Below, one piece after another: positions 11,637 to 25,644 of a stretch of DNA of 64,000 nt (positions within the stretch are counted from its first letter, which is position 1; each line of letters begins with the position of its first letter). The DNA is from Hyphomicrobiales bacterium (GTDB lineage Bacteria; Pseudomonadota; Alphaproteobacteria; Rhizobiales; Beijerinckiaceae), in contig UBNE01000025.1 in assembly GCA_900466745.1 (NCBI GenBank), positions 1 to 64,000 on the forward strand. The letters run 5' to 3'. The notes beneath the pieces were generated by a model. The model saw only the letters and a list, made by a program, of their open reading frames with translations, did not search any database and was not told where the DNA came from. A program made the position numbers and the translations under genes.

Positions 11637-12775
11637 CCCCGCCTCTCCTTCAAAATCCGTCTCGCCTCTTGGCTGTTGAACAGCTTCGGCGACCAAGCCA
11701 GCGGATCCGCCAGCCATTCGGCCTTCGTCCACACATCCGGCACGGCAATCCCGTTGATCGCATCAATCAGCGGCTGCTGCGGCACGTTCGTGTAACGCCT
11801 GCTCATGTCGTCGACGGCGTGCCCAAGGATCTGGTCCTTCACGTACGGATGGACGCCGTTGACGACGAGCTGCGTCGAGACCGTGTGACGCGCCGTGTAC
11901 GGGCTGATGTCTTTGATGCCAGATCGCTCGCGCGCTCCACGAATTGCGCCCTTAAGTTGACCGCCTCCGTCCTCAAGGATCGGGTACGGCTCGCCTTTGT
12001 GAGTGCGAAACACCTTACCGCCCTGCGCGCAGAGCGACCTAAGAACGGGTGCCAAGAACTCGTGAATTGGTACGCCGCGAGGCTCGCCGGTTTTGCTGCT
12101 GCGGACGACCAGCCAGCGCCCTGGCACGTCAACATCGTCCGCCTCAAGCGCGAACAGTTCGATTGGGCGCATACCCGTAAAGAACAGCGCCGTCATGACC
12201 ATCGCCGGCGCAGGCGACATAGCCAGCACGAACTGCGCAGCCCGATCGTAACTTGTCGGCGTCGAGCCCGAGCGGAATTTCTTCAGCGTTTCAACGTTCG
12301 TGCCCTTCGGCTTTTTAGGCAGGCGCCACTTTTTAGCATCCGCCCAGCCCTCCATCACCGCAAAGTTCCACACGGCGCGAAACGGGCCATAGAACTGACG
12401 AATGCGCGTTTCAGGCAGCGCGGTTGGATAAAGCTTCGCCGCCATACGGTCGAGGTCGTCTTGCGTGATGGTGTAAAGCTTTTTCCCCCGCAGATGCTCA
12501 ATAATGCCGCGGGGCTTTCCGTCTGCACCGATTTCCAGCAAGAACCGGTCGGATCCGCCTGCCGCAAGGTGAGCATCCGCCGCCCGGTCAAACGTCATCG
12601 TTCGCTTGAGGCCGACAACGGTTTCCTCAATCAGGCGCGCTTCTTCTTTGATTCTAAGCGTTTCTGCCGCTTTTCTGTCGCTCGTGCCACAAGAGACAAA
12701 TACGCTTTGTCCTCGGACAGTGCCGCGGATGTACCAGTTGTCGCTGCCTTTACGTTGGACGAGTCTGAGCGGCAT
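11633..12775 (-). CDS. int: Tyrosine-type site-specific integrase
   Basis: About 380 residues. The N-terminal part is an arm/core-binding region (MPLRLVQRKGSDNWYIRGTV). The C-terminal catalytic domain has the conserved set: Arg in FTGMRPIELFAL, His-x-x-Arg in YTARHTVSTQL, His in LGHAVDD and the nucleophile Tyr in SRRYTNV. It lies 0.5 kb from the left repeat, as expected for the recombinase of this element, and would recombine the tRNA-Thr repeats. An ATG five codons upstream (12790) is an alternative start. Its first 145 bases overlap the 3' part of the excisionase-like gene in another frame. Confidence 0.93.
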   Translation of the reverse strand: MPLRLVQRKGSDNWYIRGTVRGQSVFVSCGTSDRKAAETLRIKEEARLIEETVVGLKRTMTFDRAADAHLAAGGSDRFLLEIGADGKPRGIIEHLRGKKLYTITQDDLDRMAAKLYPTALPETRIRQFYGPFRAVWNFAVMEGWADAKKWRLPKKPKGTNVETLKKFRSGSTPTSYDRAAQFVLAMSPAPAMVMTALFFTGMRPIELFALEADDVDVPGRWLVVRSSKTGEPRGVPIHEFLAPVLRSLCAQGGKVFRTHKGEPYPILEDGGGQLKGAIRGARERSGIKDISPYTARHTVSTQLVVNGVHPYVKDQILGHAVDDMSRRYTNVPQQPLIDAINGIAVPDVWTKAEWLADPLAWSPKLFNSQEARRILKERRG

Positions 12776-12960
12776 CGCATTGCATCCCAAATAGCCAGGA
12801 CGTCGGACTCGCTAAAGCGGATCGCACGCCCGAAAACAGAACATAGACCATGTTTGCGCGCCGTCCGAGCGACGGCTTGCTTACTGGCGCGGAGGTAGGA
12901 GGCAGCCTCGTCGAGGCTATAGATCTTGCCCAGCGGCCCGTTATCATTCGCGGGTGTCAT
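12631..12960 (-). CDS. Excisionase-like helix-turn-helix protein
   Basis: About 109 residues. A MerR/AlpA-like winged HTH occupies residues 12-60 (KIYSLDEAASYLRASKQAVA, then CSVFGRAIRFSESDVLAIWD), the usual architecture of recombination directionality factors and AlpA regulators. The basic tail ends in KRQKRLESKKKRA. The ATG at 12960 overlaps the stop of the upstream gene (ATGA). The long overlap with the integrase gene downstream fits an excision partner, but a regulatory role is equally possible. The N-terminus carries PANDNG, one of the element's recurrent NDN motifs. Confidence 0.7.
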   Translation of the reverse strand: MTPANDNGPLGKIYSLDEAASYLRASKQAVARTARKHGLCSVFGRAIRFSESDVLAIWDAMRCRSDSSNVKAATTGTSAALSEDKAYLSLVARATEKRQKRLESKKKRA

Positions 12961-13166
12961 GGCGCCTCCCAAGGGCGGATTATGGTTTCGCCCTCCGCGC
13001 GATGCTTGTATGAGCTATAGCAGCGGCACCATCCGCTATCCCATTGCGAGTGCGAATAAGCTTGTGAGCGCTCGTTGTACGGGTTGTCGTTGCCGTCAAC
13101 GTCGCCCAACTCCCACGCCAGCCAGCCGTTGCGGAAGGCTTCGCAGTCCTCATCGTCGCCGTACAT
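12957..13166 (-). CDS. Small element-encoded protein of unknown function
   Basis: 69 residues, Trp- and acid-rich (MYGDDEDCEAFRNGWLAWEL). It resembles small ribosome-modulation-factor-like phage proteins with an A/N-G-W core (FRNGWLAW...NPYNERSQAYSHSQWDSGW), but I cannot assign it firmly. A strong AGGAGG lies eight bases before the ATG at 13166. It is coupled on both sides (TAATG with the upstream gene, ATGA with the excisionase-like gene). It contains GNDNPY. Confidence 0.65.
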   Translation of the reverse strand: MYGDDEDCEAFRNGWLAWELGDVDGNDNPYNERSQAYSHSQWDSGWCRCYSSYKHRAEGETIIRPWEAP

Positions 13167-13462
13167 TATAGCGCCTCCTGATGCTGTTTCGGCAGCCATG
13201 TGCGGAGCCACCGAAAAACCCCCTCCTTGCTGTAGAAGGCGGCGTCATTGATCGCCCGCTGATAGCGCATGAAGCGGCAGCACCAACGGCCGTGGTCGTC
13301 CTTCCAGACCATCACGGCGCCATGATCGCCTGCCGCCGAAACGGCCCGGTTCGACACCATCGCATGACGGAAGTCCGTGACGGTTCGCACCATCGGCCCC
13401 TTGAGCCTGCCGCCCTTGACCCCCGGCGGCGAATGGAAGTCGCAGAGATAGTCGTCACCCAT
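13166..13462 (-). CDS. Element-encoded protein of unknown function
   Basis: 98 residues beginning MGDDYLCDFHSPPGVKGGRL, with aromatic and basic segments such as VMVWKDDHGRWCCRFMRYQR and GVFRWLRTWLPKQ. No domain recognised. GAAGGAGA precedes the ATG at 13462, which overlaps the end of the preceding gene by eight bases; the stop overlaps the next start. Position and overlaps support a real gene of the integrase operon. Confidence 0.6.
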   Translation of the reverse strand: MGDDYLCDFHSPPGVKGGRLKGPMVRTVTDFRHAMVSNRAVSAAGDHGAVMVWKDDHGRWCCRFMRYQRAINDAAFYSKEGVFRWLRTWLPKQHQEAL

Positions 13463-13709
13463 CGATCTTCTCCTTCGCATCCGCAGGGGTGGACAGGGCA
13501 GAGCGGCCGGCTTCGGTGATGTGGTAGCGGAAATGCGTCGGCGAAAGACGCTCGATAGCTACCAGCCCCTTACGTTCGAGCGATGCTCGGCAGGCGCGCG
13601 CCGTGCGTTGGGAAGGCATATGCCAGCCGTAAGGCGCATTCGGGTTCTTGTCGTGCTTCGCCCGCAGGAATTGGAGCGCGCGAATTTCTGCTATGCCCAG
13701 CTTGCTCAT
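13455..13709 (-). CDS. Small winged-helix-like DNA-binding protein
   Basis: 84 residues. The pattern LGIAEIRALQFLRAKHD, then RTARACRASLERKGLVAIER and FRYHITEAGRSAL is a compact winged helix: three helices and a wing followed by the ITEAGR motif common in MarR/PadR-like domains. The ATG at 13709 overlaps the preceding stop (ATGA). It is probably an accessory regulator of the element; the target is unknown. Confidence 0.65.
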   Translation of the reverse strand: MSKLGIAEIRALQFLRAKHDKNPNAPYGWHMPSQRTARACRASLERKGLVAIERLSPTHFRYHITEAGRSALSTPADAKEKIDG

Positions 13710-14140
13710 TCTCCCATTCCCTTCTGATCCGGCGCTGGCGCGGGGGAAAGGGCGGCAAGCTTGCGCGCCAGGTCACAGACCGCGTGCCAGTCGGACGGTC
13801 GCAACTTGACAGCCTCCTTCGCGGGGATGGTTCCGGCGCCGTTCTCTGCCCGCTGGACGGCCTTCATGAGAGATTTGATCGCGTATGCCTCCACACCCGC
13901 AAGGGCGGGCTCGGGCGTCGCGGGAGAGGACAGGGCGGCCTCCAACAGCCGCCTCGCTTCATTCAAGCGTCGATCGTAGGACCGTTCCCCGCTGCAATAA
14001 TCGTCCAGTTCAGTCAGCAGTCCTATGGCCGCCTCCCGCACATCCCCGCCCGCAGGCTCAGAGGCGGGCTTGGCGAGGGCTCTACACTCCGGGCACCCGG
14101 AGCCGGGCCAGTCGTGCTCGCACATATCAACGCTTGCCAT
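13706..14140 (-). CDS. Element-encoded protein with an N-terminal Cys/His cluster
   Basis: 144 residues. The N-terminus MASVDMCEHDWPGSGCPECR has a C-x-H...C-x-x-C arrangement that could bind zinc; the remainder is helical and charged (AAIGLLTELDDYCSGERSYD). GGGAGG lies eight bases before the ATG at 14140. It overlaps the preceding gene by 14 bases and the following one by four. No family recognised. Confidence 0.6.
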   Translation of the reverse strand: MASVDMCEHDWPGSGCPECRALAKPASEPAGGDVREAAIGLLTELDDYCSGERSYDRRLNEARRLLEAALSSPATPEPALAGVEAYAIKSLMKAVQRAENGAGTIPAKEAVKLRPSDWHAVCDLARKLAALSPAPAPDQKGMGE

Positions 14141-14450
14141 CTTTGGGCCTCCCGTGGAGTTCGGGGCTGAGAAAAGCGCGGGCCTCACGCCGGGCGATAT
14201 CGAGTTCGTCGAGAGCATCCTCAGCACCGGGGTCGGAGATCATCTGGTCGTAAGTTGCCTGCGACCGTTTTCCTGCGGCGGCATCACAGGCCGCTTCCAG
14301 CTTGCGCAGAAGATCGACGGCACCCACATCCTCAGACCCGCTCGTCGGGGCCGGGGTTGCGTCGCTGGCGATGGAGGCGACAATGGCCACAAGTTCATCG
14401 CCGGCACCCTCAATGCCAGTTCCGGGGATCATCGAACGGGTCCGGTTCAT
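14127..14450 (-). CDS. Small element-encoded protein of unknown function
   Basis: Up to 107 residues, mostly helical: LLRKLEAACDAAAGKRSQAT, then EDALDELDIARREARAFLSP. The start is uncertain: ATG at 14450 or 14432 overlaps the preceding small gene, and neither has a clear ribosome site. No domain recognised; kept because of operon position and a coherent helical C-terminus. Confidence 0.45.
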   Translation of the reverse strand: MNRTRSMIPGTGIEGAGDELVAIVASIASDATPAPTSGSEDVGAVDLLRKLEAACDAAAGKRSQATYDQMISDPGAEDALDELDIARREARAFLSPELHGRPKDGKR

Positions 14451-14544
14451 CGACCCACAGCGAATCCCACCAGCGCATCAGGGCTGGCGCCAAGAATGCC
14501 GCCGCCCCTCCGCCCACAAATCCTGCGATGAAGTCGAAGTTCAT
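14410..14544 (-). CDS. 44-residue single-span membrane protein
   Basis: Begins MNFDFIAGFVGGGAAAFLAP, one hydrophobic helix with a glycine patch, then the polar tail RWWDSLWVDEPDPFDDPRNW. GGAGG is six bases before the ATG at 14544. It is the first gene of the leftward integrase operon. The ribosome site and start codon lie in one arm of a perfect inverted repeat (14543-14572), so translation may be controlled by RNA structure. Function unknown; small phage membrane proteins often affect lysis, exclusion or host membrane processes, but nothing here proves that. Confidence 0.6.
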   Translation of the reverse strand: MNFDFIAGFVGGGAAAFLAPALMRWWDSLWVDEPDPFDDPRNWH

Positions 14545-14572
14545 AACCAACCTCCGTTTGTAGGTTGGTTAT
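14543..14572 (-). promoter_or_regulatory. Inverted repeat masking a ribosome-binding site
   Basis: Perfect 11-bp arms (ATAACCAACCT / AGGTTGGTTAT) with an eight-base spacer. In the leftward transcript the second arm contains the AGG of the Shine-Dalgarno sequence and runs into the start codon of the 44-residue gene. It could be an RNA hairpin blocking initiation or a DNA operator; no T-run follows, so it is not a terminator. Confidence 0.6.
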
Positions 14573-14583
14573 AGCGGCGTTTG

Positions 14584-14611
14584 GTTACAAATGTCAAGTG
14601 ACATTTATAAC
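14584..14611 (-). promoter_or_regulatory. Near-palindromic operator of the element
   Basis: 28 bases with half-sites GTTACAAATGTCA and, on the other strand, GTTATAAATGTCA. It lies just upstream of the leftward integrase operon and just after the prim-pol stop codon. Closely related dyads occur at 24842-24868 and, in degenerate form, around the repressor gene (22863-22970), so it is a candidate repressor-binding site. Confidence 0.6.
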
Positions 14612-14612
14612 A

Positions 14613-16898
14613 TTAGCAGACGATGCGGAACGTCGCTCTGTCTCGCGTGATTTCGCCCGTCTCAACCAGCCGGTCCAATGCCCCGTTGACCATGCGAGTA
14701 TCGGCCTTTGACACCCCCCGTTGACGCAGCAGCACGGACCGGGCCAACGCCCCGCCCTTGGCCTTGCGCAGGGCTGTCATGATAGCCTTCATAACAGACT
14801 CGAACTCCGATCCTGACATGTATTCGCTAATGCCTTTATCCAGGCAGTCAATCGACTGTTGCACGATGGCATAGCCCCACTCGACGTCTGACAGCGTCAC
14901 CCGGGCGGCCTTGCCGTCCCTCGACAAAGCACGCAGCGTCGCCAGCTTCTGTGTCTGCTCGGCGGCACGTCCGACAACGCCCTCGTGCCCGGCTCGCTCC
15001 TCGATCTGGCCAATCTGCCAGTCTTCGATTTCGTACCAGCGGCGTTTCGTGTCATCCGAATCCCACGGCACGGCAGCCATGGCAGGACGCATGTTCGGGT
15101 CTCGTGGCGCGAATCCGCTCGGCCTGGCGTCCGCCTCCGCACTCTTGACGGCCTGAATTAGAGACGGCGGCGCAGTCATGACAGGGTTGGCTTCCTGCCT
15201 GTCCGGTCGCTCCGTGGCGTGTATGACTGTCATACGGTTCAGGAAGCCGTCCGACAGGTTCGCCTCACTGAGTCCGTCATAGAACGTCGTCGGAGTCGTC
15301 ACGGACATCAGCGTCAGCGTGGGGCACTGTAGCGGCTCGGGGTCTAGCCGCTTGGGGTCGGAGAACTGCTTGCCCATCCACATGTCCGTCGACAGCGAAT
15401 ACAGCTCCAACAGCGCGCGCCGCACCGTGGCGCCCCACGCTGTGGCCCCGCGCCCGTTGACCGACTGCATCAGCAAGCCGAATTCGTCCAGCGGAAGCAC
15501 CTGATTCGGCATCTTCCGCAGGATACGCTCGACAGCAGAGTCGGACGTAGGAACGCCCGCCGCAACCATGGGCAGCATGTTGCAGTCGTTCGCCAAGGTA
15601 CGCAGAGCCTTTAGCGGGTGCCCCTTGCCCAAGGCGGACGCACCCAGCCCGACAAGATAGATGTTCAAGCCGACTCCGGTCGGTCCCACAAAGCGCCGCC
15701 CGTAGATGCCGGCAGCAAACGCGATAGCTGTCATCATGGCGAACTCAGGCACGGGCCGGCGTCCCGTCTCCAGCGTCCAGCGCGCGATAGCCTCCATCAG
15801 GCCGCCTGCGGCCTTGGGCGGGAACGGGTCGACTTTACCACGAGGTGCGCCGACCGCCGTAGCGACCGGGGTAGGAGGTAGGTTGTCATTCGCGGGCTCT
15901 GCGGCGGAGGGCTTGGGAAACCACGGCTCGAGCCCGTGCAGGCTGTCCTCCTCAAACCCGGTCTTCGACTTCAACCAGTTTGCGGCGTAGTCGAACGTGC
16001 AGCCCATGGCGGACATGACGAGGTCGACAGGCGTGTAGCCCTTATCGCCGTCGTGGAAGTCCCTGATGCCCTGATCGGAAATCTTCAGGTTCGGGCTGCG
16101 GTCCTGCAACGGCCTGCCGCGGTGTGACGGACGCCAGAACGGCACGGCGACATACCCGCCGCGGCGGTTGCGGGATAGCTTAGGCAGGTCCAACAAAGGA
16201 ACCCATGCGTCCAGCTTGGACAGCGCCAGCGTGTTCAGGTCGCGCCAGACCCCGCCGCCGAGTCCTTCGGACACGCGCGTGACGTGCGCGGGCTCAAAGT
16301 ACCCGAACGGTGCCAGCGCGTCGGCGATCTGGTCCGCGATGTCGTCGGGCAAAAGCGGAAGGTGTTCGGCCGGCGTGTTTTCCAGCGTGTCGTCCGTCAA
16401 CCAGACATAGGGGCGGCCTGTGTCTGGGTGAACGGTCGGCGGAACAACGGTCTGCGTGCCATAGGCCAAAAGGTCCACGACACGCTCTTTATTGATATCG
16501 AAATGACGCGGAAGGATAGTGCGGCTACCGCGGTAGAACGCCGTGAATCCCTTCTCGCCGCGCTTCTGAACCGTGCTGATAGGCATGACAGCCGACAGCG
16601 CTGAACGCATCGCGTCGTTTTCCGTGTCGACGTCGATCGCAATCACGTCGTTGTAGCCCAGCGCGACGCAGATGCCTGCGTCAGGCCAGCCCGTCCATGT
16701 GCGAAGTTCGTATTCAGTCGGGGCCCGGTCGCAATACTGCGACCAGTCCATTTTACCCCACCACTGCCCCCCGGAATACGAGCCCGGCCGCTTGGAGCCG
16801 GGGCGGCACGGAATGGCGCTATAGCCGGCGTCGACGATGCGTTCGCCGTGGAGCGCGTAAGGGGCGCCCGGCGCGGGCTTGGTGGCGAAGGCGGTCAT
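14613..16898 (-). CDS. Bifunctional primase-polymerase / DUF3987 replication protein
   Basis: 761 residues. The N-terminal archaeo-eukaryotic-type prim-pol domain (about 15-200) includes GYSAIPCRPGSKRPG, the acidic catalytic motif VIAIDVDTEN and the VDLLAYGTQTVVPPTVHPDT segment. After an Ala/Pro linker with PANDNLPP, a DUF3987 domain (about 355-690) has the P-loop-like LGASALGKGHPLKAL and the acidic LPLDEFGLLM. The C-terminal region is helical with a winged-helix look. It probably starts replication of the element, priming and perhaps unwinding or extending DNA. Its start overlaps the stop of the upstream methyltransferase gene (ATGA). Confidence 0.87.
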   Translation of the reverse strand: MTAFATKPAPGAPYALHGERIVDAGYSAIPCRPGSKRPGSYSGGQWWGKMDWSQYCDRAPTEYELRTWTGWPDAGICVALGYNDVIAIDVDTENDAMRSALSAVMPISTVQKRGEKGFTAFYRGSRTILPRHFDINKERVVDLLAYGTQTVVPPTVHPDTGRPYVWLTDDTLENTPAEHLPLLPDDIADQIADALAPFGYFEPAHVTRVSEGLGGGVWRDLNTLALSKLDAWVPLLDLPKLSRNRRGGYVAVPFWRPSHRGRPLQDRSPNLKISDQGIRDFHDGDKGYTPVDLVMSAMGCTFDYAANWLKSKTGFEEDSLHGLEPWFPKPSAAEPANDNLPPTPVATAVGAPRGKVDPFPPKAAGGLMEAIARWTLETGRRPVPEFAMMTAIAFAAGIYGRRFVGPTGVGLNIYLVGLGASALGKGHPLKALRTLANDCNMLPMVAAGVPTSDSAVERILRKMPNQVLPLDEFGLLMQSVNGRGATAWGATVRRALLELYSLSTDMWMGKQFSDPKRLDPEPLQCPTLTLMSVTTPTTFYDGLSEANLSDGFLNRMTVIHATERPDRQEANPVMTAPPSLIQAVKSAEADARPSGFAPRDPNMRPAMAAVPWDSDDTKRRWYEIEDWQIGQIEERAGHEGVVGRAAEQTQKLATLRALSRDGKAARVTLSDVEWGYAIVQQSIDCLDKGISEYMSGSEFESVMKAIMTALRKAKGGALARSVLLRQRGVSKADTRMVNGALDRLVETGEITRDRATFRIVC

Positions 16899-17905
16899 AC
16901 TGCGACTCCAAACAGGTCGTTATCGTTCGCGGGCTTTGCCTTGCGGCGTGCACGCTCAAGTGGACTGGCTTCGTCAGCGTCGATGCGGTCGCGCGCCATT
17001 GCCGCGTATTCGGGGTTAAGTTCGCAGAGGACCGCGTTGCGCCCGTGCCGGGCCGCAACTAGTCCGGTCGTACCTGCGCCGCCGAACGGGTCTAGGACCA
17101 TGCCGCCTTCGGGGCAGCCCGCGAGGATGCAGGGCTCAATCAGGTCAGGAGGGAACGTGGCGAAGTGAGCGCCTGAGAAAGGCTTGGTTGCGACAGTCCA
17201 GACCGAACGGCGGTTGCGGTGCGTCGGCACGCCTTCCGCCTCAAGCTTGGCCGCGTATCGCCCGTTGAAGCCGTCATGCCGCCTGCCATGGCCGCGTTGT
17301 TTGTTCGCCCATTTGTCCGTGAATTTTCCGATTGTCGGATCAACCGCAGGCTCCTTCACCGCGTCGCTGTCGTAATAGTACCGCGGCGATTTGCTCAGCA
17401 TGAAGACGTACTCATGCGCCTTTGTGCAGCGGTCCTTGACGCTTTCCGGCATCGGGTTCGGCTTGTGCCAAATGATGTCCTGCCGCAGATACCAGCCGTC
17501 GGCTTGGAGAGCGAATGCGACACGCCACGGGATACCGATCAGGTCTTTGGGTTTGAGACCTTCGGGCACGATGCTGCCCTTGCCGCCCGCCGCTTGGGCG
17601 GGGCCGTGCTTTTTCCCGCCCTTGGTGCTCGCTACTTGGTAAGTTCGGTTGGCCGCATAGCAATCCCCCAAATTCAGCCAAAGCGTGCCATCATCGCGCA
17701 GCACGCGCCGAACCTCGCGGAACACGGCAACCATGCCCGCGACGAATTCGTCAGGCGTCGCCTCAAGCCCCATCTGCTCAGCGTGCCCATAATCGCGCAG
17801 TCCAAAATAGGGCGGGCTCGTGACGCAGCAATGCACGCTCTCCGGCTCCATTGCCGCTAGCGTAGCGCGGCAATCGCCTGTGATGATGTTGACGGTCCCG
17901 CGCAT
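16895..17905 (-). CDS. Orphan DNA methyltransferase (N4-cytosine/N6-adenine class)
   Basis: 336 residues. Motif IV TSPPYFGLRDYG near the N-terminus and motif I DPFGGAGTTGLVA near the C-terminus give the beta-type order of amino-methyltransferases; a target-recognition segment lies between them. S/TPPY more often marks N4-cytosine or some N6-adenine enzymes. No restriction endonuclease is adjacent, so it is an orphan methylase, plausibly for protection from host restriction or control of replication. Stop and start overlap neighbours by one to four bases. The C-terminus carries PANDNDLFG. Confidence 0.87.
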   Translation of the reverse strand: MRGTVNIITGDCRATLAAMEPESVHCCVTSPPYFGLRDYGHAEQMGLEATPDEFVAGMVAVFREVRRVLRDDGTLWLNLGDCYAANRTYQVASTKGGKKHGPAQAAGGKGSIVPEGLKPKDLIGIPWRVAFALQADGWYLRQDIIWHKPNPMPESVKDRCTKAHEYVFMLSKSPRYYYDSDAVKEPAVDPTIGKFTDKWANKQRGHGRRHDGFNGRYAAKLEAEGVPTHRNRRSVWTVATKPFSGAHFATFPPDLIEPCILAGCPEGGMVLDPFGGAGTTGLVAARHGRNAVLCELNPEYAAMARDRIDADEASPLERARRKAKPANDNDLFGVAV

Positions 17906-18240
17906 CAGAACGGCGCCCTCAACTCAGCAACCTGCCTACGCAAGCTCTCGCCGAATTCGTGGATGACGGTGGTCAGGAACTGCTGCCACTCCTCTTCGGA
18001 CAGATCGGCAAGGTCGGTCTTGCCGATGCCTTCCAAGAACGCGCCCGCCTTGTCCCCGGCATCGGCGCGGGCTCGTTTTTCGTAAGGATCGAAGTTTCTC
18101 ACCTGTCGGATTTCCTTGATTTGCGGGATGCAATCGTCACAAACCCATCTAGGGCGGCGTCCATCCCCCGCGCCGATTCCTGTCGCGTGCCGTCTGCACA
18201 GGAAGCATTCGGCGGGATCGTTGATGTGGGGGCTAGCCAT
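17905..18240 (-). CDS. DUF6511-like phage protein with zinc-finger cysteines
   Basis: About 111 residues. The N-terminus has ECFLCRRHATGIG and WVCDDCIPQI, two C-x-x-C pairs likely to bind one zinc ion, as in DUF6511-type phage proteins. The remainder is helical (FLEGIGKTDLADLSEEEWQQ). The ATG at 18240 overlaps the methyltransferase stop upstream by eight bases; its TGA overlaps the next ATG (TGATG). Function unknown. Confidence 0.7.
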   Translation of the reverse strand: MASPHINDPAECFLCRRHATGIGAGDGRRPRWVCDDCIPQIKEIRQVRNFDPYEKRARADAGDKAGAFLEGIGKTDLADLSEEEWQQFLTTVIHEFGESLRRQVAELRAPF

Positions 18241-19603
18241 GGGCGCGCGCCGGTTGGTTGGTGTTGTCGTTGGCGAACAGGCCGCCAATGTCGTCAGTCT
18301 GCTTGATTGCTCGCTGGCGGCGTTCCAGCGGCCCCTTGTCGGCGAGCCGTAGCCGCTCAGCGATATCGGCTTGGTATTCAGGCTCGCGCTCGATCAGCAC
18401 GCACTGGAAGCCCTCGCGCCACGCCGCCTCGCCCGTTGAGCCAGAGCCCGCAAACGGATCCAGCACCGTCCCGCCCGGCGGCGTAACGAGCCGGCACAGC
18501 CACTGCATAAGGTCGACTGGCTTGACCGTCGGGTGCTTGCTGCCAATGCGGTCCTGCTTGTCGGCCTTGGCGCTGTAGAAAAAGCGGGCGGCTGAGCCGG
18601 AGTCGTTGCGAGGCTGGAAGTCGTCACGCGGGCCATAGTCTCCGTAGACGTTGACGCTATCCTTCGCGCCGTGCTGCGGCCCTACGGCCCGTTGCTGCCC
18701 CGGCGCAGTCGGAAACGCCGCCACAACCTCGTCGCTGCCGTCGTGGATGATGTTGGCGGGCCAGCGGCCGAGGGGGTGAGCAACAATGACTTTGTCTTTG
18801 CCCTCCGTGGCAAACTTGCCAATGGAGTTCGATGCGGGGGAGCCTACAAAAACTCGCCCGTCGATTGCAGATGCGTCCGCCTCCGACATACCCACACGGC
18901 ACCCGTCGATATTCAGCGCGCCCGTGCCGTGCTCAAGCACGTTCGCCGCGACCGTGCCTTGAAGGGGTTTACGGGCAAGCACGATCGGCTCCCAGGCGGG
19001 CTTCAGCGCCGTGCCCCAGCCTTGCCACTGGCGGGCTTCGGGTGTCGTGAGTGCCACCTTGCCGCCTGTGTTGGCAATGAGCGTGCCTTCCTCGCTGCCT
19101 GAGAACCTATCCCGAGAAAGCCCGCCAAGGTCACGGTCTGGGCGGCGGGACTTGCCGGTGGTCAGCAGTTTCTCAATGCTCTGCGCAGCGTCATGACTTT
19201 TCGGAAACCCCGAACCATAAACCCACGCCAACTGGTCGCGGATTTCAAACCCGGCATCCTCAATGGCGACGGCGAGCCGGTGATAAGTCCTGGTCCCCGA
19301 AAACGCGACGACGTGGCCGCCTGGCTTGAGCACGCGCATGATCTCGGCCCAGAACTCGACGGCAAACGCCGTCTCGCCTGTGTCCCACTGCTTGCCCATG
19401 AAGCCGCTGGACGAGCGCGAATACACGTCTCCATCCTTGGTCGGAGCCGCCCCCTCCGCCCCGAACCGCTTGACGATGCTCACCAAAGCGTAGGGCGGGT
19501 CTGTGCAAACGCTATCGATGCTCGCGTCAGCCAGCCCCTTCAGCACATCGCGGCTATCGCCACCGTGAAGCACGACCTTTCCACCCAAATGCTCACTGCG
19601 CAT
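18233..19603 (-). CDS. Second orphan DNA methyltransferase (DPPY type)
   Basis: About 456 residues. Motif IV TDPPYALVSI and motif I DPFAGSGSTGEAAWREGF are in the beta-class order, with DPPY typical of N6-adenine enzymes. The long middle part (WGTALKPAWEPIVLARKPLQ, then HGTGALNIDGCRV) is the form seen in prophage adenine methylases. GGGAG lies six bases before the ATG at 19603. The C-terminal tail contains FANDNTNQ. There is no cognate endonuclease, so it is a solitary methylase like its neighbour; their recognition sequences cannot be read from the sequence. Confidence 0.87.
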   Translation of the reverse strand: MRSEHLGGKVVLHGGDSRDVLKGLADASIDSVCTDPPYALVSIVKRFGAEGAAPTKDGDVYSRSSSGFMGKQWDTGETAFAVEFWAEIMRVLKPGGHVVAFSGTRTYHRLAVAIEDAGFEIRDQLAWVYGSGFPKSHDAAQSIEKLLTTGKSRRPDRDLGGLSRDRFSGSEEGTLIANTGGKVALTTPEARQWQGWGTALKPAWEPIVLARKPLQGTVAANVLEHGTGALNIDGCRVGMSEADASAIDGRVFVGSPASNSIGKFATEGKDKVIVAHPLGRWPANIIHDGSDEVVAAFPTAPGQQRAVGPQHGAKDSVNVYGDYGPRDDFQPRNDSGSAARFFYSAKADKQDRIGSKHPTVKPVDLMQWLCRLVTPPGGTVLDPFAGSGSTGEAAWREGFQCVLIEREPEYQADIAERLRLADKGPLERRQRAIKQTDDIGGLFANDNTNQPARAHG

Positions 19604-19742
19604 CAACAGTCTCCCGACGCACGACCGCCCAGCCTTCGTGCGCAAGTACGGCCAATACGGCAGCCGCCAAAGTAGCAAAGCCCATGGGTTGAGGATTATT
19701 CGCGAGCATTCGCACGATTGCTTCTTGAGGGCTAGGCTGCAT
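19593..19742 (-). CDS. 49-residue element-encoded protein
   Basis: Reads MQPSPQEAIVRMLANNPQPM, then FATLAAAVLAVLAHEGWAVV and RRETVDAQ: amphipathic with one moderately hydrophobic helix. GGAGG lies nine bases before the ATG. It overlaps the HNH gene's stop by eleven bases and the methyltransferase start by a similar length, typical of this operon. No family recognised. Confidence 0.5.
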   Translation of the reverse strand: MQPSPQEAIVRMLANNPQPMGFATLAAAVLAVLAHEGWAVVRRETVDAQ

Positions 19743-20313
19743 TCGTGATTACCTCCGGCTGATTGTCATTCGTCGCGCGCAGCGCATAAATACGTTGTCT
19801 CATCTCGGCTATGTCTAGAATGCTGTCGTAGACACCGGCGCGCTTTTCTTGTTTGCTCAATCCTGACCGATCAAATGGAGAAACGCGCCTGCTGGTGTAT
19901 GAAATAAAATCAGGATCGTTCAGGTTGACCTTTTGGGAGGACCAACGAAGATTACAGGGGCGGTTGTCTAGGCCGTTTTCGTTCAGGTGTCGTACTCCGC
20001 TCGTTCCATCGGGATTTTTCCCGTGAAATGCCTCGCACACTGCGAAATGGACTTTGATATTTCGCTTGAGGCTGTAATACCGAACGTTGAAATACAAATG
20101 TCGCGCGCCCTTTGAGGATTGGCAAATCACACCAAAGGTCGGTTCGGCCCGGTACTCACGTAATCCACCGTGAGGCATCGCCCGCTTGAATGGCTGCAAG
20201 CAAATTCGCCCGTGGCTGCTTGCGCGAAGGCCGGGTATAGACGGAACGTCGCGCCACTCTTCCGCAGGAAGGTTGTCGTTGTCAGCCTGTTGGTTAAAAT
20301 GCAATTTCGTCAT
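19732..20313 (-). CDS. HNH endonuclease with NUMOD4-like N-terminus
   Basis: About 193 residues. EEWRDVPSIPGLRASSHGRI is like the NUMOD4 motif of phage homing endonucleases, and CEAFHGKNPDGTSGVRHLNE plus NGLDNRPCNLRWSSQKVN is an HNH_3-type nuclease core with the conserved N-G-x-x-D-N-R and N-L-x-W. It is probably a free-standing homing-type nuclease or a replication/packaging nuclease. The start at 20313 overlaps the helicase stop; ribosome site weak. NDN motifs occur at both ends (ADNDNLP, TNDNQPE). Confidence 0.8.
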   Translation of the reverse strand: MTKLHFNQQADNDNLPAEEWRDVPSIPGLRASSHGRICLQPFKRAMPHGGLREYRAEPTFGVICQSSKGARHLYFNVRYYSLKRNIKVHFAVCEAFHGKNPDGTSGVRHLNENGLDNRPCNLRWSSQKVNLNDPDFISYTSRRVSPFDRSGLSKQEKRAGVYDSILDIAEMRQRIYALRATNDNQPEVITNAA

Positions 20314-22021
20314 CCAATATTTCAGCCATCGAGCGGTTATCGTTGCTTGCCGCCGGCGCGTTATCGTTTGCGGCAGCAGGCCTATAATCCTTGACATCCC
20401 ACTTTTTCTTGTACGTCTTGGATTGCTCTATCCGAATTTCGGCGGTTTCCTGAAGCTCCCCGGCACGGCTTAACCACTCGTCTGCTGTAGCTGGAAATGG
20501 CCTCTGCCCGCCGTGACGTACCCAAAACTTGTCGGCCAAGAACTTTGCTTTTGGATGCTGGACGGGAGCCCAGCCCCAATATTCAGAAAGCCCCGACGTA
20601 TACACAATCTTGATGCTCGGATTGCCGCCAAGCTTTTCGTGATACCGGAACCGCCGGCGCGTCACCGGAATCCAATGCTCCGGGGTGGCCGCGCTCGTGC
20701 TCAGGATAGGCGCCGTATCCGACCGAGCCTCAAACCGCGGCTTTTCCTCGAACTCGAATTCAAACCCGCAGCATGAGCACCTACGCACAGAAGCGTGGTT
20801 GATCTCAAAACAGCTAGGGCAGACCTTCACCGGCGCTTCGCCCTGACCTTTGCCGGGCTTGCGCGGCTGGATCATGTCAACCGGGCCATGCTCCTTGATG
20901 TTGCCCGCGAAGTCCATGTAGCGGCAGTTCGGCTTGATCCAGCCTGCGATAGCCGCGCGCCTGGCCTCGGCATCGGCTGCCTCAGGGTCGAACCCAGGCG
21001 GGTAGACAACGCGCGTGCCCCTGCCCGCCCTTTGGACGTATCGGGCTGCCGACATCGTCCTGTAGCCATCAACGATCAGGTCGACGCCGACAATATTGGT
21101 TCCAGTACTTAAAACGTTGTCGTTGACCAGCCCCCACAGATCTCCGGCCTTCAGTTCTTCGATAAGGCGCCTGCGCTCGCCTGCGGGCGTCCCGCCATGC
21201 ACCATCTCCACTTTGCGGCCAAGGCGCTTGAACACGTCACGCATGCGGGTGCAGTGCTCAATGCCGCGGAAGAACAGCAGCGCCTTGTTGCGGTGCCCCT
21301 CGACGTCCAGCACTTCCTCCGCAACCAGCCGGTTGAGGCTGTCGGAGTCCACGGCGGCCCGGTAGTCGCTAGCTTTGAAATCGCCCATGGACTTGCGGAC
21401 GCCGGTGACGTCGTAGTTTGTCGACAGGGGCTTGCTGGACAGTGGAGTCAAGTAGCCATCGTCCACACCTTGGCGGATGCCATAGGTATAGACCACCTCG
21501 TCAAAGAGCTTATCGTCGCCTTCGTCCAGTCGGCCCGAGTCCAGCCTATACGGCGTTGCCGTAAGACCGACCATCTTCATATCGGGATTGATGGCCTGAA
21601 GGTCCGAAATGAACGACCGATACATGGTCGTGTCTTTCGTCGGGACCAGGTGAACCTCGTCGATTTGTAGAACGTCGACGTGCCCAATCTCCTGCGCCTT
21701 GTTGTAGACGGACTGGATTTGCCCAAACAGCATATGCGACTTGGGCTCACGCCGGTTCAGCGACGACGCATAGATGCCGGTCGGAGCGAACGGGTCGACG
21801 CCGACGTATTCCTTGTAGTTGGATTCCACGATTTCCTGGACATGAGTGACAGACATCACACGCAGGTCGGGCCAGCCGTCACGCAGTTCCTTCATCAGGA
21901 CGCCGTTGACCATCGCCTTGCCCGTGCCCGTGGCAAGGTCGACAAGCGGGTGTCCGTCCTTCTGCCCCCAGAAGTCAAAGACGGCGTCGATCGCAGAACG
22001 CTGGTAGTATCTAAGGGCCAT
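20294..22021 (-). CDS. SF2 DEAD/DEAH-box helicase of the element
   Basis: 575 residues. RecA-like domain 1: DLATGTGKAMVNG (motif I), LQIDEVHLV (motif II, DEVH) and LTATPYR (motif III). Domain 2: LFFRGIEHCTRMRDV, VNDNVLSTGTNIVGVD (motif V) and QRAGRGTR (motif VI). A zinc ribbon CPSC...CSCC follows at about 400-425, and the tail bears two motifs ANDNAP and SNDNRS. Motif I has Ala36 where Ser or Thr should bind Mg-ATP, an unusual change. It is probably a replication or recombination helicase acting with the prim-pol protein. Confidence 0.88.
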   Translation of the reverse strand: MALRYYQRSAIDAVFDFWGQKDGHPLVDLATGTGKAMVNGVLMKELRDGWPDLRVMSVTHVQEIVESNYKEYVGVDPFAPTGIYASSLNRREPKSHMLFGQIQSVYNKAQEIGHVDVLQIDEVHLVPTKDTTMYRSFISDLQAINPDMKMVGLTATPYRLDSGRLDEGDDKLFDEVVYTYGIRQGVDDGYLTPLSSKPLSTNYDVTGVRKSMGDFKASDYRAAVDSDSLNRLVAEEVLDVEGHRNKALLFFRGIEHCTRMRDVFKRLGRKVEMVHGGTPAGERRRLIEELKAGDLWGLVNDNVLSTGTNIVGVDLIVDGYRTMSAARYVQRAGRGTRVVYPPGFDPEAADAEARRAAIAGWIKPNCRYMDFAGNIKEHGPVDMIQPRKPGKGQGEAPVKVCPSCFEINHASVRRCSCCGFEFEFEEKPRFEARSDTAPILSTSAATPEHWIPVTRRRFRYHEKLGGNPSIKIVYTSGLSEYWGWAPVQHPKAKFLADKFWVRHGGQRPFPATADEWLSRAGELQETAEIRIEQSKTYKKKWDVKDYRPAAANDNAPAASNDNRSMAEILDDEIAF

Positions 22022-22380
22022 TATTCTGACAGTCCATCCACGTAAACACTGCCATCGCGCAGTCTGTAATAGATCAACTCTTCTTCTTCATTGACGTCGA
22101 ATTGCTCACCGTCGATTAAACCTGGCAGCCACCTATGAAGCGGACACCCTTCGCGTTGCTCATCGATCGAAAGAGGCTTCGCCCAGCGCTGACAGCCCCA
22201 TGAGCAATCGCCCCCGCGCTCTGGCGCCGAATGCAGGCACGTCCGGCAGTGCACACGCGGCATGGAGCCGTGGCACACGTCCTTGTGCTTGCAGAACATA
22301 CAGTCGGGGCTGTCGGGGTTTTCGCTGATGCGCCCCGGCGGCTCGTCGCTGAAGATGATGCGCTCGGCACGCGCCAACAT
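22021..22380 (-). CDS. Cys-rich C-terminal domain of a phage nuclease-like family; N-terminus absent
   Basis: About 119 residues. RIIFSDEPPGRISENPDSPD followed by CMFCKHKDVCHG, CRTCLHS and DCSWGCQRW resembles the conserved cysteine-rich tail of larger phage exonuclease-like proteins, where four or more Cys may hold an iron-sulfur cluster or zinc. The catalytic N-terminal part is missing. No ribosome site precedes the ATG at 22380, and the segment overlaps the upstream gene in another frame by about 220 bases. It could be a truncated gene, or be made by frameshifting from that gene. Its stop overlaps the helicase start. Confidence 0.5.
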   Translation of the reverse strand: MLARAERIIFSDEPPGRISENPDSPDCMFCKHKDVCHGSMPRVHCRTCLHSAPERGGDCSWGCQRWAKPLSIDEQREGCPLHRWLPGLIDGEQFDVNEEEELIYYRLRDGSVYVDGLSE

Positions 22381-22558
22381 CGTCGTCAGCCCAAACCAGT
22401 TCGTCGCCGTACAGCCACCGCTCGCGCGTCACGCCCTGCGCGTCGCTGAATCGGACCTTGTAAGCCAGCGGCTTGCCCACCTCCTCGCGGCGCCCGACAA
22501 TCGGACCCTCGATAACCGTGGCGACATAGTCGCCGACCGCAAACACGTCGTCTTCCAT
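22160..22558 (-). CDS. SH3-like small protein; true C-terminus unclear
   Basis: The first 60 residues (MEDDVFAVGDYVATVIEGPI, then YKVRFSDAQGVTRERWLYGD) look like a small beta-barrel of the SH3 kind, with a strong AGGAGG before the ATG at 22558. After WADDDV the frame runs through the Arg/Ala-rich shadow of the cysteine-rich frame that overlaps it, so the last 70 residues are probably not conserved. Either a base is missing, or two proteins overlap, or a frameshift joins them. Only the N-terminal part is supported. Confidence 0.5.
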   Translation of the reverse strand: MEDDVFAVGDYVATVIEGPIVGRREEVGKPLAYKVRFSDAQGVTRERWLYGDELVWADDDVGACRAHHLQRRAAGAHQRKPRQPRLYVLQAQGRVPRLHAACALPDVPAFGARARGRLLMGLSALGEASFDR

Positions 22559-22593
22559 TTAGTCCTCCTACTAGGAATTAATGCCAAAACGAG

Positions 22594-22848
22594 TCAGGAC
22601 AGGCATTTCAGCCGAGGCAGACTCACGGCGTGGTGGCTTACAGTGTCCGTGCTCCAGCCGACTTGGTGCGGCATGACGCGAGAGACTGTGCTTTCCGTTT
22701 CTGGTACAGGCGGCAATAGCCTACGGAAGGCGTTTGCGTTCCTCGCCCGCACACGGTTTATGACTGTGTCCAGGCACATCCCCGTTCGCCGTGCAATTTC
22801 GCGCGCAGACATGCCCTCTGCGGCCATAGCCGCAATGTCTGTTTCCAT
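22594..22848 (-). CDS. Small HTH protein divergent from the repressor (Cro-like position)
   Basis: 84 residues. The N-terminal METDIAAMAAEGMSAREIAR, then RTGMCLDTVINRVRAR is a homeodomain/resolvase-like HTH; the C-terminus is featureless. It faces away from the S24 repressor gene across a 137-bp control region, the place of an early activator or Cro-like regulator, and may head the leftward replication operon. Homology to Cro itself is not evident. Confidence 0.6.
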   Translation of the reverse strand: METDIAAMAAEGMSAREIARRTGMCLDTVINRVRARNANAFRRLLPPVPETESTVSRVMPHQVGWSTDTVSHHAVSLPRLKCLS

Positions 22849-22862
22849 GGTGATGTCCGCTT

Positions 22863-22970
22863 GTTATTAACGCTAAGTGACATTAGCGGGTGTCTGCCCA
22901 CCCATGTCAAGCGTCATGAATGTTGATAACGCGAAAAACAGGTGCTACCTAACGCGCATATGTCAAAGGA
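22863..22970. promoter_or_regulatory. Divergent early control region with repeated operator-like dyads
   Basis: Between the divergent HTH and repressor genes lie CGCTAA-GTGACA-TTAGCG (22871-22888), ATGTCAAGCGTCAT (22904-22917), ATGTTGATAACG (22919-22931) and ATGTCAAAGGACGTC (22960-22974). They share the word ATGTCA/TGACAT and GTTAT/ATAAC with the longer palindromes at 14584 and 24842. This arrangement is expected for the genetic switch of a temperate element. Individual promoters are not clear. Confidence 0.55.
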
Positions 22971-22985
22971 CGTCAGGAGTACGCA

Positions 22986-23699
22986 GTGAGATACAACGAA
23001 ATTTTCCGCGCGAAGCGGCTTGAAAAGGATCTGTCCCAACAGGCGCTCGCCGACGCGGCAGGGGTCGAGAGAGGGCAGATCACCATTATCGAAGGCGGAA
23101 AGAGACTGCTAACGAATCGGTATTGGGAAAAAGCCATTGCCGTCCTCGGAATCAGCCGCGAGGAGTTTCTAGGCGGCATGACTCAGGAAGAACGAGATTC
23201 CGCGACTGGTAGCGTGGGGCGAAGCCGTCCGAAGTCCTTTGCCGCGGCAGCTACGGCTTTGCCCAACACCCTATTGCGGCACGTCCATAACACCGATTCG
23301 CCCTCGGGACCTCGGCTTATCCCGGTCATGGGGCAGCCTGCGGCCGGGGCCATCGGGCGCCTGGCTATGGGTGAGCCGGTTGAGTATGACGCTTGTCCGC
23401 CGTGGCTCGAGCGCGCGTCCGGCGTCTACTTTCTGGACGTGCCGAGCAATAGCATGGCCCCGCGGTTTCTGCCGGGCGAAAGGATCGCCGTACACCCTGG
23501 CAAGCCATACACCGAGGGCGACTATGTCGTCGTGCAGTACGACGTTGACGGCGAAATAGTCGGCATCGTCAAGCAGTTCCTGCGTTGGGAGGACGACGGC
23601 GACTTGATCTTGGCGCAGTACAACCCCGCCGAGGAAATCCGCATCCCCGGGGACGACGTTCGCGACGTCCATAAGGTTTTTATCCATGGCTTGGGATGA
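22986..23699 (+). CDS. S24-family phage repressor (XRE HTH plus LexA-like peptidase)
   Basis: 237 residues. The N-terminal XRE HTH (about 3-60) includes RAKRLEKDLSQQALADAAGV and RGQITIIEGGKR. The C-terminal S24 domain has a likely cleavage site QPAAGAIG (Ala-Gly), the nucleophile Ser in PSNSMAPRFLPGERI and the Lys in VGIVKQFLRW. It is expected to repress the lytic or excision functions and to be inactivated by RecA during the SOS response. It starts at GTG 22986 with AGGAG six bases upstream. A strong terminator follows at 23741. Candidate operators lie on both sides of the gene. Confidence 0.9.
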   Translation: MRYNEIFRAKRLEKDLSQQALADAAGVERGQITIIEGGKRLLTNRYWEKAIAVLGISREEFLGGMTQEERDSATGSVGRSRPKSFAAAATALPNTLLRHVHNTDSPSGPRLIPVMGQPAAGAIGRLAMGEPVEYDACPPWLERASGVYFLDVPSNSMAPRFLPGERIAVHPGKPYTEGDYVVVQYDVDGEIVGIVKQFLRWEDDGDLILAQYNPAEEIRIPGDDVRDVHKVFIHGLG

Positions 23700-23710
23700 G
23701 CGTTAAAAAC

Positions 23711-23729
23711 GTTATTGACAGCCAATAAC
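23711..23729 (+). promoter_or_regulatory. Inverted repeat GTTATTG-N5-CAATAAC after the repressor gene
   Basis: Perfect 7-bp arms 12 bases after the repressor stop. The sequence GTTATTGACA recurs at 24851-24860. It could be an operator for the rightward small-gene operon, or part of the repressor's 3' end. Confidence 0.45.
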
Positions 23730-23740
23730 CATTAACATAT

Positions 23741-23773
23741 AAAGGCCGCATCGGAAACGACGCGGCCTTTTTT
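23741..23773 (+). terminator. Terminator of the repressor gene
   Basis: AAAGGCCGC ... GCGGCCTTT with a 12-base spacer, followed by TTT; a classic rho-independent structure 41 bases after the repressor stop. Confidence 0.8.
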
Positions 23774-23797
23774 CATGGCCGCAGGGGAGAGCGAGCC

Positions 23798-23917
23798 ATG
23801 ACAGCGACGATCGGAAATCGGTCCTACAAGGCAAAGGAAACCAACGGACGGTACTTTTACTGGTCCCCCCGCGCGCTTCGCTGGCTCCCCATCTCCAAAG
23901 AGAGGGTGTCGGCATGA
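23798..23917 (+). CDS. 39-residue element-encoded protein
   Basis: MTATIGNRSYKAKETNGRYF, then YWSPRALRWLPISKERVSA: basic and aromatic. GGGGAGA lies about eight bases upstream of the ATG at 23798, right after the repressor terminator. Its stop overlaps a following ATG (ATGA). Likely a small nucleic-acid- or protein-binding factor, but no family is recognised. Confidence 0.45.
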   Translation: MTATIGNRSYKAKETNGRYFYWSPRALRWLPISKERVSA

Positions 23918-24090
23918 ACTACGTAATCGCCTCAGACCCGAACGACGTTCGCAACGGCGATGTCTGTAACCACCGCGCACCCAGCGCACAACCGAAGGAA
24001 CCACACAATGAACCGTCGCAAATTCTTCGCAGCCCTCGCTATCGCCCCCGCCCTTCCTGTTGCTGCGGCTACCGCTGCAACGGGTGGTGA
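23914..24090 (+). CDS. Possible 58-residue overlapping small protein
   Basis: The ATG overlaps the preceding stop (ATGA) and gives MNYVIASDPNDVRNGDVCNH. The second half overlaps the next gene in another frame and becomes Arg/Cys/Pro-rich (RSPRYRPRPSCCCGYRC), which looks like an out-of-frame shadow. Only the coupling argues for it. Confidence 0.25.
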   Translation: MNYVIASDPNDVRNGDVCNHRAPSAQPKEPHNEPSQILRSPRYRPRPSCCCGYRCNGW

Positions 24091-24247
24091 GGTGACAGGG
24101 TATTTCATCTCGGAAGCAAAATACGAAGAACTGATGCAGTCTATGGATCAGTTCAAGGGCGATTATATCTCAATCTGCCGCTTGGACGATGCCCTAGCTT
24201 CAGTACGAGACGTGCCGATTACTGAGTCGGAATTCGACGCGCTCTGA
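24008..24247 (+). CDS. Small exported protein with a Tat-like signal
   Basis: 79 residues. The N-terminus MNRRKFFAALAIAPALPVAA has a twin-arginine R-R-K-F-F motif, a hydrophobic stretch and an AxA cleavage site near ATAAT; the mature part (about 55 residues, GYFISEAKYEELMQSMDQFK) is small and acidic. AAGGAA precedes the ATG at 24008. Twin-arginine export of such a short protein is unusual for a phage-like element. Function unknown; it may act in the periplasm. Confidence 0.55.
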   Translation: MNRRKFFAALAIAPALPVAAATAATGGEVTGYFISEAKYEELMQSMDQFKGDYISICRLDDALASVRDVPITESEFDAL

Positions 24248-24253
24248 ACCCCC

Positions 24254-24282
24254 TTAAGGCGGCTGCGCCAGCGCCGCCTTAA
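24254..24282 (+). terminator. Stem-loop after the Tat-like small gene
   Basis: TTAAGGCGGC / GCCGCCTTAA with a nine-base loop, five bases after the stop codon. There is no T-run, so it may be an attenuator, a processing or stability hairpin, or a weak terminator before the sigma-like gene. Confidence 0.5.
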
Positions 24283-24306
24283 TCACCCCCCTTGTTCTGG
24301 TGCCAC

Positions 24307-24840
24307 ATGCCCACTTCCGCAGTTCCCTCCAACGACAACCGCCCCGCAAGCTTCGACCAGGCCCTTGTCGACTACCTCCCTGGCCTGCACGCAGTCGCCA
24401 TCCGCGCTTACCCGAACGAGGAGTCCGACGAACTCGTCAGCGACACGATAGAATACGCCCTGTCACATTGGCAGTCACAGCGCCCCGGCGTCACCATGCT
24501 CACATGGCTCCGGCAGGTCATGAGCTTCATGCGTGCGCGCCGCCGCATCGCAGCCAGCGCCCAAAAGCGTGCCGGTGTTACCGTGCCCCTGGACGACAGC
24601 ATGGCGTCGGTCAGCCCCGACGACACCAACACCGCCCTGCGGCAGGCCGTGGACCCGCTCCCCGAGCGCTCCCGCGCTATCGTCCTTATGCAGGCGGCCG
24701 GGTACACCCTGAACGAAATCGGCATAGCCCACGGCCTCACCCGCGAGCGCATCCGACAAATCAGCCGACGCGCCGTCGAAGCCATGCGGCGCGACCGCTG
24801 CCAGGCCAACGACAACTGGGACAGGCGGTGTGCTGCCTAA
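24307..24840 (+). CDS. Sigma-70-like (ECF-type) RNA polymerase sigma factor of the element
   Basis: About 177 residues. Region 2-like: FDQALVDYLPGLHAVAIRAY, then ESDELVSDTIEYALSHWQSQ and TMLTWLRQVMSFMRARRR. Region 4-like: LPERSRAIVLMQAAGYTLNE, then HGLTRERIRQISRRAVEAMR. The layout is that of small ECF-like sigma factors encoded by phages and rhizobial prophages. No anti-sigma gene is adjacent. It could redirect polymerase to element or helper-phage late promoters. NDN motifs occur near both ends (SNDNRP, ANDNWD). The ATG at 24307 is preferred; the ribosome site is weak. Confidence 0.7.
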   Translation: MPTSAVPSNDNRPASFDQALVDYLPGLHAVAIRAYPNEESDELVSDTIEYALSHWQSQRPGVTMLTWLRQVMSFMRARRRIAASAQKRAGVTVPLDDSMASVSPDDTNTALRQAVDPLPERSRAIVLMQAAGYTLNEIGIAHGLTRERIRQISRRAVEAMRRDRCQANDNWDRRCAA

Positions 24841-24841
24841 T

Positions 24842-24868
24842 GTTATGAATGTTATTGACATTTATAAC
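24842..24868 (+). promoter_or_regulatory. Near-palindromic operator of the element
   Basis: 27 bases with half-sites GTTATGAATGTTA and, on the other strand, GTTATAAATGTCA, starting two bases after the sigma-like stop codon. It is very similar to the dyad at 14584-14611 but with one base less between the halves. Confidence 0.6.
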
Positions 24869-24882
24869 CAGACATGGCATTA

Positions 24883-24917: not shown

Positions 24918-24927
24918 GGAGACCGCT

Positions 24928-25566: not shown

Positions 25567-25644
<78 letters not shown>

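Follow-up and report, generated by a model that had tools for sequence, protein, structure and literature searches.

Short peptide addresses that commit proteins to the protease ClpXP, and phage links to this route, are known from several bacteria. The ssrA tag of Escherichia coli consists of an AANDENY half that binds the adaptor SspB and an ALAA half that binds ClpX (PMC8512704). An untagged cellular protein of E. coli, a fragment of RseA, is likewise delivered by SspB to ClpXP (PMC8138137), Pseudomonas phage pf16 encodes an SspB of its own (PMC5587285), and in mycobacteriophage BPs and its relatives an LAA-type, ssrA-like C-terminal tag is borne by repressor and integrase, that of the repressor being removed upon integration (PMC4557955, PMC9262239). 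Here we describe a 14.5 kb element integrated at a tRNA-Thr gene of a Hyphomicrobiales bacterium, bounded by two attachment (att) repeats (11037 to 25619) within a stretch of 64,000 nucleotides (contig UBNE01000025.1, positions 1 to 64,000; hereafter the window), many of whose unrelated proteins carry the short sequence xNDN. This sequence, mostly AANDN or PANDN, is a selected short linear motif and probably copies, within the genes themselves, the half of the host ssrA tag that docks SspB. Its residues are those with which the host tag begins, many C-termini also show the spacing of the tag and a final AA, its sites are mostly in tails, N-termini and linkers, and in the samples examined only alphaproteobacterial phages and integrated elements have it.

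The motif shares with the alphaproteobacterial ssrA tag, SspB and ClpXP system the ANDN start, the C-terminal spacing (8–9 residues in tags of the order, mostly 7–9 in phage proteins) and a common AA ending, but differs in being gene-encoded rather than added in trans, in its other middle, in often lacking AA and in occurring also at N-termini and in linkers. An origin as a tag added by transfer-messenger RNA (tmRNA) is ruled out, as the codons lie within the genes themselves. The mycobacteriophage tags underlying integration-dependent immunity are likewise phage-encoded C-terminal ssrA mimics that set protein lifetime, although there a ClpX-type end is found on two proteins and here the SspB half on many unrelated ones; moreover, the integrase and the repressor of the window (C-termini ..ILKERRG and ..FIHGLG) carry no ssrA-like tag. 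The RseA fragment is a single host regulator with another sequence, whereas here a set of phage proteins carries the tag's own letters, and in pf16, the other phage linked to the SspB pathway, the adaptor and not the tag is carried by the phage. No report of the motif in alphaproteobacterial phages was found in the top-ranked titles and abstracts of open-licence PMC papers, a scope beyond which the main papers on alphaproteobacterial SspB lie, and a term search of a paper on 16-3-like phages (PMC10460002) gave no mention of SspB, ssrA or ClpXP.

Six-frame translation of the window yields 12 NDN triplets, which fall without exception in genes of the element between 12.9 and 24.8 kb; the rest of the window has none. 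This agrees with the initial annotation, which had described xNDN as recurrent in the element's proteins and absent from the host proteins around it. When the 21 open reading frames (ORFs) of the element (4,628 amino acids) were shuffled, a mean of 0.23 NDN and a maximum of 3 were obtained in 5,000 runs, against 12 observed in 8 ORFs, and the same-composition controls NND and DNN were near zero. Ten of these sites are terminal or lie in tails or linkers, the other two being a GNDN in a small ORF and a VNDN at 21124 in the helicase core, which was left out of the motif set. The codons differ between sites, as had been noted, indicating a motif at protein level. Behind the motif the HNH protein and the sigma-like factor terminate in ..TNAA and ..RCAA, methyltransferase 1 in VAV and methyltransferase 2 in HG. 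Residues 551–575 of the helicase have a predicted local distance difference test score (pLDDT) below 50 in a structure model built on 8 sequences, and the predicted disorder of this tail is all that the model shows.

Table. Sites of the xNDN motif in the element and the repeats that bound it (window coordinates).
Feature	Position	Strand	Remark
PANDN, excisionase-like protein (12631–12972), N-end	NDN codons 12940–12948	−	protein matches HTH_17 and excisionase family
GNDN, 84-aa ORF (12957–13211)	NDN codons 13083–13091	−	weak case; ORF without family
PANDN, primase-polymerase (prim-pol) protein (14613–16898), linker	NDN codons 15882–15890	−	between Prim-Pol (22–176) and a primase-type stretch from residue 350
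PANDN, methyltransferase 1 (16895–17905)	NDN codons 16919–16927	−	7 residues before C-end (PANDNDLFGVAV)
FANDN, methyltransferase 2 (18233–19678)	NDN codons 18263–18271	−	9 residues before C-end
ATNDN, HNH protein (19732–20397)	NDN codons 19762–19770	−	9 residues before C-end (..VITNAA)
ADNDN, HNH protein, N-terminal part	NDN codons 20272–20280	−	
AANDN and ASNDN, helicase (20294–22021), disordered tail	20336–20368	−	sites at 20368 and 20344; ahead of SSB-like C-end DDEIAF
PSNDN, sigma-like factor (24292–24840), N-end	NDN codons 24331–24339	+	
QANDN, sigma-like factor	NDN codons 24808–24816	+	7 residues before C-end (ANDNWDRRCAA)
Left att repeat	11037–11106		70 nt, 94% identical to 25550–25619
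Right att repeat	25550–25619		overlaps tRNA-Thr 25570–25644 (− strand)

The whole genome (4.49 Mb) contains 64 AAYGAYAAY sites on both strands, of which the window accounts for 12, another motif-bearing element (L003) for five and the tmRNA tag for one. Twelve of the remaining 46 belong to called genes, and two of these twelve sit close to a terminus, STNDN in a 64-aa ORF and MRNDN at an N-terminus, neither preceded by A; host tails in this genome are not as rich in NDN as those of the element. A congener carries a further motif-bearing element in a head module (L059), where terminase, tape measure, portal and a protease–capsid fusion are the carriers.

Alphaproteobacterial tmRNA (ssrA) tags begin almost invariably with ANDN, and the motifs of the element, mostly ANDN but also SNDN, TNDN and DNDN, share their residues with the half of the host tag that binds SspB. 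This genome encodes an alpha-type tmRNA with the tag ANDNNARVAVAA and, directly downstream on the same strand (L002), an SspB (PF04386, E 5.5e-52) with homologues of solved structure in Caulobacter and Agrobacterium (2qaz, 2qas, 2nys). Within the order tmRNA was found in 57 of 61 genomes, and the 29 best-scoring loci (L315–L343), to which that of the present genome is additional, all encode a tag that starts with ANDN and ends in AA, with 8–9 residues after NDN, and carry sspB directly downstream of ssrA on the same strand. Across the class 28 loci yielded 23 tag calls, and in 22 of these ANDN and AA are constant, the middle being variable (ANDNEMALAA, ANDNRLALAA, ANDNVEPTAVAA). SspB was detected in 127 of 142 alphaproteobacterial genomes. 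Four of the six SspB-less genomes with a tag call lack ANDN (AKSDYAEYALAA, ANESYAIAA, ANNKYALAA and ADDNFEYAMAA; L369, L374, L375 and L376), while of 44 SspB-bearing genomes 35 have ANDN and nine do not; these 44 combine a first set in which ANDN was present in 22/22 with a second, of divergent small genomes picked as such, in which it was present in 13/22 and 13 of 40 loci yielded no tag. Among the nine exceptions, seven are doubtful-looking tag calls of at least 15 residues. The association of ANDN with the presence of SspB has a Fisher p of 0.033, or 0.0017 for tags of up to 13 residues, relatedness being uncorrected in both.

The distribution of the motif was followed with a helicase profile in named bacterial genomes, the best 80 of 94 relatives' loci comprising 69 from alphaproteobacteria and 11 others. 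The alphaproteobacterial loci (413,020 amino acids) contain 123 ANDN against 2 ANND and 1 ADNN, the other 11 (including one 'Proteobacteria' and one Magnetococcales metagenome-assembled genome) 0, 0 and 1. About 20 named prophage loci are rich in the motif, mainly from Hyphomicrobiales (Shinella, Agrobacterium, Rhizobium, Ensifer, Neorhizobium, Ochrobactrum and others), and it is absent from Roseomonas-type loci, in which the helicase is tailless. Among named phages NDN, NND and DNN number 22, 0 and 6 in the gene calls of Sinorhizobium phage NV1.1.1 (repressor C annotated), 14, 1 and 4 in Rhizobium phage 16-3 and 11, 0 and 0 in Rhizobium phage TM3_3_14B, both with an annotated integrase. Outside the alphaproteobacteria, phages StB27, D3 and HK97 have no terminal motif, eight phages chosen through the same helicase give 7, 3 and 7 with no ANDN, and the gamma-type counterpart AND[DEQS] was not found near C-termini in the small sample of D3 and HK97.

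In viral contigs, an exact DNA search retrieved 59 stretches with AANDNR, 18 with AANNDR and 27 with AADNNR, of which 33, 10 and 9 respectively are in frame. The gapped pattern NDN-x-AA-stop defined 41 unique in-frame genes among the 120 stretches listed, 31 of them with A before NDN, against five genes among 120 listed stretches for NND and 15 among 118 for DNN, some of which contain ANDNN; each of these gapped scans had at least 120 matches, so that raw counts are not comparable and in-frame fractions alone were used. Elsewhere in the listed NDN stretches ANDN, ANND and ADNN occur 73, 4 and 6 times, in the two sets of control stretches 4, 8 and 4 and 20, 2 and 10 times. In frame-blind whole-genome DNA, ANDN exceeds ANND in 56 of 64 alphaproteobacteria (seven below, one tie; ratio 1.41) and in 71 of 175 other Pseudomonadota (94 below, 10 ties; ratio 0.91). 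This excess was dropped as support because, of 40 such sites from four alphaproteobacterial genomes, 27 lie outside the longest frame and the others are mostly inside enzymes. Several of these enzymes we take to be Prs and FabD; tmRNA tags are also among the sites, and one site (L087) lies six residues from the C-terminus of a 422-aa frame.

The 69 alphaproteobacterial loci supplied 1,468 closed genes for an examination of the motif's shape. In these NDN follows A 120 times, D 26 times, E 17 times and S 16 times, and 110 of 205 NDN sites lie within 30 residues of the C-terminus, 23 within 30 of the N-terminus and 72 internally. In 45 genes NDN stands 5–12 residues before the end, in 27 of them at 7–9 residues, and 32 of the 45 end in AA as compared with 98 of 541 other genes of the same 20 loci (p 2.7e-13). 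A separate set of 741 genes from the window element, the second element (L003), the head module of the congener, the three named phages and the viral contigs gave 12 of 21 against 57 of 720 (p 2.5e-8), the simple gene caller overlooking some genes, such as that of the sigma-like factor of the window. That NDN arose from the composition of low-complexity tails, or through spreading DNA repeats, is highly improbable. The sites do reside in Ala/Pro-rich tails, and RNDN-type DNA repeats do occur in a congener (G011; L060, L061, L062), where PRNDNG recurs out of frame as short repeats unrelated to the protein motif. Against such an origin, however, the separate set has 37 NDN but no NND and no DNN within 30 residues of C-termini, shuffled tails predict on average 3.1 genes where 90 are observed, codons differ between sites, and in Sak4 proteins NDN is slipped between the conserved KYWP and EAA. 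Selection at the protein level, bias towards termini and restriction to element proteins, as originally proposed, are supported with composition-matched controls.

Scanning of 20 of the 41 viral genes identified three portals, four DNA repair exonucleases (phrog_704), four methyltransferases, two exonuclease VIII proteins, one Sak4, one RNA ligase, one ParB-like protein and four without known function or match, and a hand-picked set of ten proteins of prophages and phage 16-3 comprises seven methyltransferases, one Cas4, one Sak4 and one portal. The motif is therefore common to unrelated folds, and a restriction to replication proteins is rejected, since portals, terminase, tape measure and capsid fusion carry it. 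Whether homologues lack the motif at random, which had been named as a possible objection, has a mixed answer. Among helicase homologues NDN stands close to a terminus in 20 of 21 from motif-rich loci and in 3 of 64 from elsewhere, and the Dam-like methyltransferase also keeps it nearly always in such loci (7/7), with 3/3 for the methyltransferase 2 family, 5/9 for the sigma-like factor and 0/4 for prim-pol, while Sak4 (3/18) and Cas4 (4/19) are mostly without; as loci were divided by motif content, the contrast between motif-rich and other loci is partly circular. NDN is absent from two methyltransferase 1 homologues of gamma phages and from four plasmid homologues of the methyltransferase 2 type, two of them alphaproteobacterial.

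The initial annotation had suggested a shared docking partner, for example a replisome or protease component. The protease alternative fits the identity with the start of the host ssrA tag, the tag-like spacing and the AA ends, whereas the replisome fits poorly, because portals, a terminase, a protease–capsid fusion and a tape measure protein bear the motif as well. The beta-clamp binding motif is a QL(S/D)LF-type pentapeptide. Phage methyltransferases have C-terminal LF motifs (QLSLFGEAA, QLTLFGEAA, QLDLL and QMDVF; L225, L226, L234, L235, L246, L313 and L314) which presumably resemble this site, and most tailed homologues of the helicase keep an acidic C-terminal tip (20294–20311 in the window; DDEIAF, DDEVPF) that we take to resemble the end of SSB. 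ANDN itself does not match the beta-clamp motif. It might nevertheless be argued that the motif docks another common partner, a phage or host factor such as the clamp, SSB or a polymerase, and that its identity with the ssrA tag is a coincidence; the clamp-like LFGEAA or QLSLF that adjoins ANDN in some methyltransferases and the presumed SSB-like tip of the helicase tail would speak for this. We regard it as quite improbable, however, since the gamma-phage homologues of methyltransferase 1 have the clamp-like QLDLL or QMDVF and no ANDN, and the two motifs are therefore separable, since nothing evident would lead a portal, terminase or tape measure protein to bind a replisome, and since exact identity, spacing, AA end and restriction to the class all fit the ssrA tag.

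The motif likely binds SspB, which would tether the carrier to ClpXP. For carriers with a tag-like C-terminus (ANDN-x-AA) degradation would ensue, and we lean slightly towards SspB–ClpXP turnover of C-terminal carriers; where such an end is lacking, as in the helicase, linkers and N-termini, SspB would dock, and may tether or deliver only weakly. The most likely use would be to render leaky expression of replication and lytic genes harmless in the integrated state, protein lifetimes being short and limited by the adaptor, so that only strong induction, by saturating SspB, would let the tagged proteins accumulate. That leaky lytic genes are silenced in this way until induction is the least certain step and can be proposed only tentatively. 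It is conceivable, though doubtful, that many temperate alphaproteobacterial phages run a proteome-wide programme of proteolysis in which a shared address, taken over from the host's rescue tag and placed on unrelated proteins, makes SspB–ClpXP a saturable gate that silences leaky lytic expression in lysogens, with joint release on induction.

Several observations weigh against this interpretation. Portals and capsid fusions, which need stability in virions, carry the motif, and delivery would therefore have to be slow or saturable, or SspB act as a tether. In the window only two of the four C-terminal carriers, the helicase excluded, end in AA; within families the motif has been gained and lost; and two of the six SspB-less genomes retain ANDN (G294, and G270, which is 81% complete). 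In phage motifs NDN is followed mostly by R, V or A, where tags of the order usually have Y or F, although class-wide tags outside the order also lack Y/F at this position and so do not support a need for an aromatic residue. The motif is also lacking in a number of alphaproteobacterial phages: NDN, NND and DNN number 1, 0 and 1 in Azospirillum phage Cd (its single ANDN being internal), 1, 0 and 0 in X2_26, 0, 0 and 0 in Paracoccus phage R3, 0, 1 and 0 in RHEph05 and 2, 0 and 0 in Sulfitobacter phage M39, and RcapMu, RR1-A and PBC5 have no terminal motif, with 0, 1 (internal) and 0 ANDN. All eight of these sampled phages thus have no motif or a single internal ANDN, three of them with an annotated integrase or transposase, and RcapMu, RR1-A, PBC5 and Cd refute both the notion that all temperate alphaproteobacterial phages carry the motif and the notion that only lytic ones lack it.

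Some of these points would be accommodated if the SspB-bound motif were a decoy or tether and not a degron, its copies occupying SspB, or SspB–ClpX serving as an unfoldase or assembly platform, so that phage proteins are spared or host quality control is altered. Virion proteins are indeed among the carriers, 95 of the 205 sites lie beyond 30 residues of the C-terminus, either internally or N-terminally, and E. coli AANDENY without the ClpX end gives SspB binding and little degradation (PMC8512704). Such a role is nonetheless unlikely, as the strong enrichment of AA endings and tag-like spacing at C-terminal sites would be superfluous for a pure decoy.

The element itself encodes a tyrosine integrase, an excisionase-like protein, a prim-pol protein, two N6/N4 DNA methyltransferases, an HNH nuclease, a superfamily 2 helicase, a Cas4 fragment, an S24 repressor and a sigma-like factor. 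No virion family was detected among 20 of its proteins scanned with Pfam, and a PHROGs scan of ten gave matches for nine. As its att repeats are intact and the scanned proteins include none from a virion, it appears to be a satellite or deletion derivative of a 16-3/NV1.1.1-like prophage. The Cas4 exonuclease fragment (22021–22380) matches only profile positions 200–286 of 290 and terminates in VDGLSE; in some phage relatives VDGAANDN followed by a tag-like end stands at this place. A 153-aa ORF without Pfam match (11271–11732) lies immediately inside the left att site.

Should the motif prove to be an SspB address, alphaproteobacterial SspB would gain many natural substrates beyond tmRNA-tagged proteins, and temperate phages a post-translational layer of control that is legible from sequence. 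The tolerance of lysogens for leaky lytic genes would become addressable through a single host gene, sspB, and a four-residue address would predict which proteins of mobile elements are short-lived.

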